From a virus: a stretch of DNA of 42,056 nt. Position numbers and translations under genes: made by a program. Shown here one piece after another: positions 10,598 to 42,056 of the stretch. The notes under the pieces are model-generated. The model was given only the letters and a program-made list of their open reading frames with translations, was not told where the DNA came from and ran no database searches. Where the stretch lies: the IMG/VR virus record IMGVR_UViG_3300020000_000003, positions 1-42,056 of that record; one strand, given 5' to 3'. Numbering within the stretch: position 1 is the first letter of the stretch; every line of letters starts with the position of its first letter.

Positions 10598-10630
10598 AAT
10601 TTCACGCTTCTATTATCTTTTTGTGAAGTT

Positions 10631-10710
10631 GAGGATGGTAAGACTTGAACTTACAACCTGCATAGCCCTCTTTCGAGGTAACACCGCCTCTCTAATTGAG
10701 ATACACCCTC
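10631..10710 (-). tRNA. tRNA-like gene B, anticodon not assignable
   Basis: The ends fold like tRNA: acceptor GAGGGTG/CATCCTC (7 bp with one G-U), T8-A9, a D stem TCTC/GAGA with only a 5-nt loop, and a perfect T arm GTAAG-TTCAAGT-CTTAC. No CCA is encoded. The middle does not form a normal 5-bp, 7-nt anticodon arm; instead there is CCTC-GAAA-GAGG, a GNRA-capped hairpin, and a loop-like GTGTTAC. It shares GAGAGGCG, GGCTAT and ATGCAG blocks with the neighbouring element. It could be a degenerate tRNA or a tRNA mimic. Confidence 0.55.
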
Positions 10711-10718
10711 TAAAAATT

Positions 10719-10817
10719 GGGGATGGTTGGACTTGAACCAACGAAACTGCATGAAAACGCACCAGACCGGATAGCCGACCGCGCTCATCGCCTCTCTACC
10801 TACTGAATTACATCCCC
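10719..10817 (-). tRNA. tRNA-like gene A with expanded middle, anticodon not assignable
   Basis: A 99-nt element with acceptor GGGGATG/CATCCCC (7 of 7), D loop AGTAGGTA with the conserved GG, and a T arm GTTGG-TTCAAGT-CCAAC. Between D and T arms lie about 50 nt that include a hairpin GGTCGG-CTAT-CCGGTC and a weak TGCG/TGCA stem. The expected anticodon position has no U33. Relative to element B it appears to carry about 20 extra bases after GGCTAT. The ends are convincing; decoding function is not. Confidence 0.55.
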
Positions 10818-39455: not shown

Positions 39456-39887
39456 CAATTCTGTTACTTTTATGACCTATAATTATAATAGGCGGAACAG
39501 GTTCTTCGACCCATCCTCTCATAGTTACCTATGAGCTCAGACTATCGCTTCTTCTGTATTTTATATTACCTACAGAAGTCTTCTCACTTAGTCGTTCAGG
39601 CTGATTTAAATTCAAAGCATTTTGAATATGATTTTTACATTCTTCAAATGTTTCAAACGAGGGTGATAAAACAATTTCTTCGCTATTGTGAATCAATTCA
39701 CCCATAGCAAAAAAACTATTATCTGTTTTATCTATCCATATATGAAATACATTTTCTAATTTAATCCACATATCATAATCAATCTGTATCCAATTCATTT
39801 CTTGCCCCTTGTTATCCTTTCCCAGCATTATGCTGCGATTAGGAACTCCAAGTCAATCAGAGAAGATTTTAATTCGGCACACATTTT
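39456..39887 (-). ncRNA. Group I intron in the major capsid gene, 432 nt
   Basis: Read on the minus strand. P1: exon AUUCGGU (39894-39888) pairs with GCCGAAU (39878-39872), putting a U-G pair exactly at the 5' splice site. P3: UCUUCUC (39866-39860) with GAGAAGA (39585-39579). P4: GAUU (39858-39855) with AAUC (39840-39837). P7: GACUA (39593-39589) with UAGUC (39544-39540), inside R- and S-like boxes (AACGACUAAG; GCGAUAGUCUGAG). P8: CUUCUGUA with UACAGAAG (39578-39551). P9: CUCAUAG with CUAUGAG (39535-39518). P10: exon 2 ACA with UGU (39881-39879). The last intron base is G. Subgroup not assigned. Confidence 0.9.
39529..39798 (-). CDS. Intron-encoded small protein, 89 aa
   Basis: The frame lies in the P6-side loop of the intron and continues through P3', P7, P8 into P9, where its stop codon lies. 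ATG 39798 (MNWIQIDYDMWIKLENVFHI) follows AAGGGG at seven bases; a further ATG ten codons earlier has no better site. Residues 1-65 look like a real small alpha/beta fold (strands, then SFETFEECKNHIQNAL), while the last ~23 are dictated by the ribozyme core. No homing-nuclease motif (LAGLIDADG, GIY-YIG or HNH) is present. Role unknown; a splicing helper or a captured gene are options. Confidence 0.5.
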   Translation of the reverse strand: MNWIQIDYDMWIKLENVFHIWIDKTDNSFFAMGELIHNSEEIVLSPSFETFEECKNHIQNALNLNQPERLSEKTSVGNIKYRRSDSLSS

Positions 39888-40678: not shown

Positions 40679-41428
40679 ATGAACCAAGTAGAAAAGACAA
40701 TAAACCATGGAATATTTAAGCTTCTTACAGGGAATAGACCTATTGACAGGTATCACTTGAAGAAACTTAAAGAATCAGTAGAGAAAAACAACCAACTGAA
40801 TCTTCATCCTATTATCGTTAATCAAAACTTTGAAGTAATCGATGGACAACATAGGCTAGAGGCTGCTAAGCAGTTAGGATTCGAAATATTCTACATTAAA
40901 TCAGATTCCATTAATGATGAGCATCTTATCGAATGTAATGTAAACCAAAAGTCTTTTGACGTTGAAAATTACATCGACTACTTCGCTATTAAAGATAAAA
41001 AAGAAGAATACATAATCCTTAAGGGAATGCTGAAAGCTTCAGGACTAAAGCCCAAAGCATTACTTACTTTGATTCTAGGTGTTGTTAGCACAAATATCCT
41101 TGAGTTTCTGAAGACCGGGAAGTTTAAGTTTCCTGCATTACAGGATCCTAAAATCATATTAGATTTCTACTATGACTTCATTGCATATGCAAAAGACAAG
41201 CGTCTAAAACCCTTCAGCATGTTCACAAACCATAATTTCACAAGGTCTTTACGTTGGCTTTACATGACACAAGGATTTGAAAAGGAGATTTTATTTAAGA
41301 AACTTGATTTGCGTTGGTTTGATTTAAAGCCTCAAAGAACATCTGAAGAATGGTATAAGCTTTTAGTCGATATTTATAACTTCAAAAATCACAATCGTAT
41401 TGAAGGTGAGTATGGGAAAATCAATTAA
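40679..41428 (+). CDS. ParB/Srx-fold protein, 249 aa
   Basis: N-terminal ~80 residues are a ParB-type nuclease/CTPase-fold domain: NRPIDRYHLKKLKESVEKNN, then HPIIVNQNFEVIDGQHRLEA with the conserved DGQHRL box. The remaining 170 residues are helical and charged (KDKKEEYIILKGMLKASGLK), without an obvious ParB HTH core. No ParA is encoded. AAGGA five bases before the ATG. It lies on the plus strand between scaffold and capsid genes and overlaps the zinc-ribbon gene by 17 nt. Phage homologues are often regulators or nucleases rather than partition proteins. Confidence 0.75.
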   Translation: MNQVEKTINHGIFKLLTGNRPIDRYHLKKLKESVEKNNQLNLHPIIVNQNFEVIDGQHRLEAAKQLGFEIFYIKSDSINDEHLIECNVNQKSFDVENYIDYFAIKDKKEEYIILKGMLKASGLKPKALLTLILGVVSTNILEFLKTGKFKFPALQDPKIILDFYYDFIAYAKDKRLKPFSMFTNHNFTRSLRWLYMTQGFEKEILFKKLDLRWFDLKPQRTSEEWYKLLVDIYNFKNHNRIEGEYGKIN

Positions 41429-42056
41429 ATATAAAATTGGTTATAAATTGAATGATTGGACTATAAAAAATATAAATGAATCATCAAATAAAATCTCTTA
41501 TCACCTAATTTGTAAATGTGGACAAGAAAGAAAAAATGTATCGTCAGGTCATCTTACAAGAGTTTCATGTTGTCGTTTTTGTTATGGCGAGAAAGAATCT
41601 AATCACTTAATTGGAAAAAGATTTGGAAGATTAACTGTGCTTTCAAACGAAAGAATTAATGGAGTAAGAAAATTAAAAGTTCTCTGTGATTGTGGCAAAG
41701 AATATTTTATGTATTCGGAGACATTAAAAAATTCACGATCTTGTGAGAGTTGTAGACAAGGATATTATCCTGGAAAAATTATCGAAGGAGTTGAACTTTT
41801 AAGACGAGTAGAAGGTCGTCTATGGGAAATGAAATGCAAATGCGGAACAATTTTTCAATCTATACCTAAATTTCATAAAAGAGACAGAAAAAACTTTGTT
41901 ACTTGCGGTTGTCGATGGGATAACCATTATTTAAAAAAATTAAATGAAAAATTAGGGTATCGATTTGGTCTTTTAAAAGTAATAGGATTTGAAAAAGAAC
42001 CTAGACATTACATTTTGGTGTGTAAATGCAAATGCGGAAATATTATAACAGTTAAA
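41412..42056 (+). CDS. Four-zinc-ribbon HTH protein, N-terminal 215 residues (continues at 1-442)
   Basis: AAGGTGA lies just before ATG 41412. Three successive ~50-residue units each end in a cysteine cluster: unit 1 GYKLNDWTIKN..CKCGQE..SCCRFC, unit 2 GKRFGRLTVL..CDCGKE..SCESC, unit 3 GVELLRRVEG..CKCGTI..TCGC; unit 4 begins GYRFGLLKVIG before the contig end. The frame then runs through the circular joint into 1-442. Each unit resembles the zinc-ribbon found singly in phage HNH/AP2 proteins; a tandem of four is unusual. Coupled to the ParB-like gene by a 17-nt overlap. Confidence 0.85.
   Translation, partial: MGKSIKYKIGYKLNDWTIKNINESSNKISYHLICKCGQERKNVSSGHLTRVSCCRFCYGEKESNHLIGKRFGRLTVLSNERINGVRKLKVLCDCGKEYFMYSETLKNSRSCESCRQGYYPGKIIEGVELLRRVEGRLWEMKCKCGTIFQSIPKFHKRDRKNFVTCGCRWDNHYLKKLNEKLGYRFGLLKVIGFEKEPRHYILVCKCKCGNIITVK
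41930..42056. repeat. Terminal direct repeat, copy 2 (circular closure)
   Basis: Identical to 1-127. Remove one copy to obtain the circular genome; the coding frame 41412-442 is unbroken across the join. Confidence 0.93.

Follow-up and report, generated by a model that had tools for sequence, protein, structure and literature searches.

The window, by which we mean the whole 42,056-nucleotide stretch of the viral record IMGVR_UViG_3300020000_000003 that was analyzed, carries a direct terminal repeat of 127 bp (1–127 and 41930–42056) and is therefore probably a complete (circularly closed) genome. It encodes a portal protein (phrog_156, 1e-35), a large terminase and, on the minus strand, a major capsid gene that lies in two pieces. 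Judged by its protein sequences, the phage combines a P22-type portal with an N4-gp56-type capsid. Just upstream of the capsid gene and on the opposite (plus) strand, a ParB-like ORF (40679–41428) and a Cys-rich repeat ORF running across the record ends (41400–42056/1–442) were recognized by eye. Rfam tRNA matches were found on the minus strand at 10630–10710 (38.6 bits) and 10718–10817 (34.7 bits), neither of which is reported by ARAGORN; the second spans 100 nt, perhaps owing to a long variable arm or an insertion. MAG contigs examined for a host pointed to conflicting phyla. The capsid locus is composed as follows:

40430–39888, minus strand: exon 1 of the major capsid gene, 181 codons (residues 1–181), ending in GGU; matches uninterrupted relatives
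39456–39887, minus strand: intron of 432 nt, almost certainly group I, from 5' AAAAUGUGU to ACAGAAUUG 3'; supported by boundaries, guide pairing, covariation and a covariance-model match
39529–39798, minus strand: ORF within the intron, 89 aa from AUG 39798 or 99 aa from AUG 39828
39455–39018, minus strand: exon 2 of the major capsid gene, residues 182–326 and stop; matches uninterrupted relatives

Stops occur in all three frames within the 432 nt at 39887–39456. After removal of 39456–39887 on the minus strand, exons 1 and 2 join in frame to a protein of 326 aa, which aligns over residues 1–326 with uninterrupted homologues. Among the best 80 IMG/VR capsid genes, 72 have no interruption and align across the joint with 83–95% identity, and the uninterrupted relatives have exactly FG|TGPVR at this position. 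An earlier sequence-only reading had proposed a 432-nt intron splitting the capsid gene, with the same joint and the same product length; both proposals are confirmed to the base. Its assignment of the gene to the N4-gp56 capsids is likewise borne out. The joined protein matches phrog_1357 (major head protein) with 1.6e-14, compared to 3.6e-4 and 1.2e-5 for the halves alone, the same family is matched by 26 of 26 relatives, and a profile built from the uninterrupted relatives finds phage major capsid proteins of solved structure with 5e-8. For Pfam PF25209 the spliced product stays under the cut-off, the best value among the relatives being 6e-8. No match to the capsid protein was found among named phages. 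On the question of an HK97-like fold, an AlphaFold model of an uninterrupted capsid relative reached a pLDDT of only 38. By sequence comparison, the interrupted gene is an N4-gp56-type major capsid gene.

As had also been predicted, gene callers show two ORFs instead of one gene, and together with the silence of Rfam described below this would fit a broken capsid gene or an assembly artefact with unrelated sequence between the pieces. This explanation is hardly credible in view of the exact in-frame joint, the absence of decay in either exon, and the occurrence of nearly the same intron at this joint in four loci from independent metagenomes (L104, L189, L213, L216), in which 56–58 of the first 60 intron bases are the same as in the window. 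One of them, L104, shows compensatory changes in P5. Readings as an intein, a frameshift or an assembly gap were ruled out, since the joint is exact and the intron recurs in independent samples.

The intron can be folded into the following elements, given in the direction of transcription:

39881–39883, minus strand: P10 partner UGU, facing ACA of exon 2; read from the sequence
39871–39878, minus strand: P1, internal guide GCCGAAUU, 8 bp with GAUUCGGU of exon 1 and a U·G pair at the splice site
39860–39866, minus strand: P3 5' strand UCUUCUC; covariation and window fold
39808–39852, minus strand: P4 (CUUG/CAAG) and P5 hairpin, the P5 loop holding the capsid-frame stop
39828–39830, minus strand: capsid-frame stop UAA in the P5 loop, overlapping an in-frame AUG (UAAUG)
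39805–39810, minus strand: AAGGGG, part of P4/P6, at an SD-suitable distance to AUG 39798; putative SD function
39598–39601, minus strand: P6 3' strand GCCU; covariation and window fold
39589–39593, minus strand: P7 5' strand GACUA, guanosine-binding helix; covariation and window fold
39579–39585, minus strand: P3 3' strand GAGAAGA; covariation and window fold
39551–39578, minus strand: P8 hairpin CUUCUGUA...UACAGAAG, 8 bp; window fold
39540–39544, minus strand: P7 3' strand UAGUC; covariation and window fold
39476–39535, minus strand: hairpins P9 (39518–39535), P9.1 (39494–39516) and P9.2 (39476–39492)

In the window, P3 comprises 7 bp (UCUUCUC/GAGAAGA), P7 is GACUA/UAGUC and P9 comprises 7 bp (CUCAUAG/CUAUGAG). 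Exon 1 terminates in U and the intron in G, with the end AACAGAAUUG. All helices that the sequence-only reading had drawn by hand (P1 with its U·G pair, P3, P7, P8, P9 and P10 with ACA/UGU) were found as described, as were the two terminal bases.

The Rfam model RF00028, whose use had been suggested as a check, gave no match to the window, permissive filters included, nor to six related intron-bearing loci; in a wider locus scan it matched in few loci, and there elsewhere than at the introns of the family. This reflects the limited reach of the library model, which overlooks a whole sub-family. Searching for exact copies of the window's core string also found nothing. Insertions in relatives share the common core CUGAUUGACUYGGA...GGGGCAAG...GCCUGAACGACU...GUCUGAAC, and 67 compact related cores, with the window left out, were aligned for covariance analysis. 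A structure of P3, P4, P5, P6, P6a, P7 and P8 fits 97.2% of the pair cells in these cores, with 305 double changes compared to 82 in shuffles, and all slid controls fall to 42–48% of pair cells. Double changes occur in seven of the seven P3 pairs. In P7 all cells are paired, and double changes are restricted to one pair (the inner one, AU/GC/UA), the other four being invariant. Such a confinement of variation to the inner pair is expected for the guanosine site.

The covariance model built from this alignment was run unfiltered on both strands of the window. Its two top matches, 39534–39669 (E=1.5e-7) and 39724–39873 (E=0.0036), are the two halves of the intron, parted by the P6 insert of 197 nt. 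A covariance hit, by which the group I claim was to be judged, is thus absent for the Rfam model and present for the family model. Since the joint matches over the full length of the protein and the two halves take the top two places in an independent model, the intron of the window lies far beyond chance. Further support comes from the guides. Splice sites were mapped in the capsid gene for 180 introns, and a guide/exon pairing score of ≥5 was reached by 89% of them compared to 6% with guides from other sites; the former figure is slightly inflated, as pairing had some weight in the choice of sites. We regard this guide/exon covariation as the strongest single argument for group I. With P3–P8 covariation, guides that follow their sites and an independently trained model all backing the original interpretation, the element is almost certainly a group I intron. 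Its boundaries and conserved structure are established by computation, while we infer the splicing itself.

A second core type, GAACGTAGCAAGCG...GGTGCTC (e.g. L130, L208), was noticed by eye. It shows a compensatory replacement in P7 from GACUA/UAGUC to G-AGCA/UGCUC and retains the ORF frame, with QPERSKRED in place of QPERLSEK.

The intron belongs to a large family. Among the matches listed, the 144 best-supported introns occupy about 55 positions in the capsid gene; a few positions seen in a single locus are probably misplaced by the alignment, so that forty or more positions can be taken as safe. Up to six pieces were found in one capsid gene (L257). The site of the window, after residue 181, holds at least 30 introns, some of them in capsids that are only about 28–40% identical. 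The loci were selected by intron patterns and their frequency is uninformative on prevalence; a less biased figure is given by the 80 closest IMG/VR capsid genes, eight of which are interrupted by an insertion, in every case close to the N-terminus and never at the window's site. Judged by eye from flanking translations, the family core also interrupts P22-type coat genes (L092, L101, L194, L200), portal genes (L097, L103, L125, L133, L139) and tape-measure-like genes (L085, L173). In 50,697 named phage records the core was found only in the P22-type coat gene of ctn9Y15 (L304, MW202674.1, 2686–4201) and in the ribonucleotide reductase gene of CRP-118 (L305, OR420741.1, 2001–4074), each annotated as two genes. 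An intron at capsid codon 77 in another locus (L312, 1501–2000) has a P9 insert of roughly 120 nt with a T-arm-like end GGTTCGATTCCATCCTCCGG; ARAGORN reports no tRNA in this intron, though its 3' part is tRNA-like.

The sequence-only reading had overlooked the protein encoded within the intron, as well as the related introns that relatives have in this gene at dozens of other positions. The ORF of the window starts 2 nt past the P6 strand GGGGCAAG, behind the SD-like AAGGGG. It consists of a 65-aa module in the P6 loop, after which P6'-P7-P3'-P8-P7' are translated as QPERLSEKTSVGNIKYRRSDSLSS. Similar to the window, 59 distinct ORFs among the loci listed start 0–3 nt after the P6 strand. For 57 of these a 3' core was recognized, and 51 are open through it in one common frame, one in another, while five stop earlier. 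The common frame is the one that allows the protein to continue, because both alternatives hit UGA or UAA inside the core. Common ancestry of the ORF-bearing introns may account for part of this frame conservation. Many ORFs pass on through another insert, located in P8, before they terminate at P7' (AIV*) or within P9 (MET*). The ORF sequences in P6 are mostly unrelated to one another, and several stops are usual in the other frames of these regions.

Selection at the protein level is indicated by pN < pS in most clearly related pairs, with pN/pS of 0.13/0.52, 0.13/0.37 and 0.35/0.77 for pairs of P6 modules and 0.06/0.57 and 0.16/0.36 for pairs of P8 modules. Homologues of the window module, gapless over 65 codons, are found in introns at sites 77 (L295, L312) and 122 (L313), and this module family shows a dN/dS of 0.36–0.49. 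From two sequences, AlphaFold predicts a compact domain that is rich in strands and has a helix at its C-terminus (pLDDT about 75–88 for residues 11–70), the core-encoded tail of the window ORF being of low confidence. We consider it very probable that the ORF of the window is coding. It has no match in Pfam, PHROG or NCBIfam and no library name, and is no recognized homing endonuclease; no match to the cargo protein was found among named phages, and Foldseek with the cargo model gave nothing significant, with weak PH-like and uncharacterized phage matches only. Taken together, the locus is best explained by a group I intron with a small gene in the P6 loop that is read through the ribozyme core, the capsid gene being restored on splicing. 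To this reading as a whole we assign a probability of roughly 0.86.

The element might instead be a conventional mobile group I intron with an ORF for a homing endonuclease, either novel or degenerate, that overlaps the core only incidentally, as does I-TevI, which lies in P6 and overlaps P7 (PMC3073962). Endonuclease ORFs do occur in family members at other sites: capsid-gene introns at L114 6266–8510 and L104 3264–4067 contain LAGLIDADG ORFs, one sense and two antisense, of which L114:6366–7286 is matched by Pfam with 3.3e-6 and the weaker ORFs of L104 and L114 by the PHROG family ‘HNH endonuclease’ with 1e-22. These ORFs could be able to mobilize the intron family, and zinc-ribbon-like CxxC pairs in some of the cargos point in the same direction. 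A site-specific endonuclease would, however, follow its site, which weakens this explanation: about 19 mutually unrelated ORFs (best unrelated score 37) are found at site 181 alone, and the ORF family of the window occurs at three sites. Since most family ORFs comprise only about 55–120 aa and that of the window matches no endonuclease profile, we regard a homing endonuclease as unlikely. Most likely, the small protein serves as an accessory passenger and not as a mobility or splicing factor.

The position of the ORF relative to the capsid reading frame suggests a coupling of the two. In the window the frame of exon 1 reads into the intron and halts at UAA 39830–39828 in P5, 32 nt before AUG 39798. 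A capsid-frame stop in P4–P5 was found in 37 of the 44 distinct introns with an ORF compared to 9 of the 21 without (Fisher p=0.001), mostly 22–35 nt before the AUG of the ORF, and the capsid frame meets the J3/4 motif in one register in 42 of the 44, whatever the insertion phase; as the introns are akin to one another, these counts carry less weight as independent evidence, and ancestry may explain part of them. The SD-like strand is present in introns without an ORF as well and is therefore a structural strand first of all. Stops that lie in frame close to the 5' splice site are known to keep ribosomes off group I cores, and td splicing is impaired by ribosomes on the I-TevI ORF (PMC3073962).

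We propose that the RNA would fold into P1–P10 and self-splice with guanosine, restoring the 326-aa capsid protein. In unspliced RNA, ribosomes coming from exon 1 would terminate in P5, about 30 nt ahead of the ORF start, and could restart at the ORF on the SD-like P6 strand to yield the small protein. Ribosomes translating the ORF would melt P6-P7-P3-P8, and the ribozyme fold would be lost. Because of this melting, one transcript would give either capsid (spliced) or small protein (unspliced). We rate this coupling with its either/or outcome slightly above even, re-initiation and mutual exclusion being its presumed steps.

The constant proximity of capsid-frame stop and ORF start would also be expected if the ORF were a regulatory leader, the translation of which tunes splicing with the peptide sequence being irrelevant, and translation of the core must perturb its folding, for which the ribosome-binding site of I-TevI is a precedent (PMC3073962). 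Purifying selection at the amino-acid level, the predicted fold, the conserved CxxC motifs and the reuse of one module in several introns speak against a mere leader, which we consider improbable. A further property of the family is the exchange of its parts. A common P8 module is combined with different P6 modules in L208/L297, L115/L270 and L180/L189, and a common P6 module with different P8 modules in L270/L299. The introns in virion genes may act as interchangeable carriers of two-part mini-genes (P6 and P8 modules), held in one frame by the core codons (QPERLSEK/QPERSKRED) and recombining among dozens of sites, each transcript giving either capsid or cargo in mutual exclusion. In this full extent the proposal is tentative, and we place it a little short of even odds.

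If these readings are true, standard annotation overlooks an abundant intron family together with the small proteins it carries, and intact capsid genes are taken as broken. The fixed frame would be a clear case of ribozyme and protein constraint acting on one sequence. The exchangeable P6 and P8 modules would further point to the introns of late virion genes as a possible shelter for accessory proteins that change rapidly.

Several known systems share individual features with the window. Mycobacteriophage LittleE has a group I intron in its major capsid gene as well, with exon 1 ending in U, the intron ending in G and intronless relatives, and its splicing was demonstrated by RT-PCR and N-terminal sequencing (PMC3706429). 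In contrast to the sense ORF of the window, which runs through the core and is no endonuclease by profile, the LittleE intron contains an antisense LAGLIDADG-like ORF (PMC3706429). Several group I introns per MCP gene were reported for zeta/delta crAss-like phages, with one MCP in five fragments (PMC7886860). There the introns were recognized via their endonuclease domains (PMC7886860), whereas most of those described here are either compact or encode small proteins without a name; the phages of the window type differ from the zeta/delta crAss-like phages with about 40 kb and P22-type portals. The same intron core as in the window is found in the coat gene of Podoviridae sp. ctn9Y15 and the ribonucleotide reductase gene of Roseobacter phage CRP-118, for which the annotation gives split genes and no intron; in gene family, both differ from the MCP of the window. 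A further precedent is the T4 td intron, in which the I-TevI ORF lies in the P6 loop, its 3' end forms part of P6a/P7 and its translation hinders splicing, and an ORF of Synechococcus lividus overlaps P6–P9 similar to the core overlap of the window ORF (PMC3073962, Table 1). These core-overlapping precedents are endonucleases (PMC3073962), in contrast to the unrelated small proteins found here in one fixed frame, often with another coding insert within P8, and with exchange of modules. Introns in capsid genes and ORFs overlapping the core are already known; compared with the open-access literature, the new part is the fixed-frame, two-loop, exchangeable ORF.
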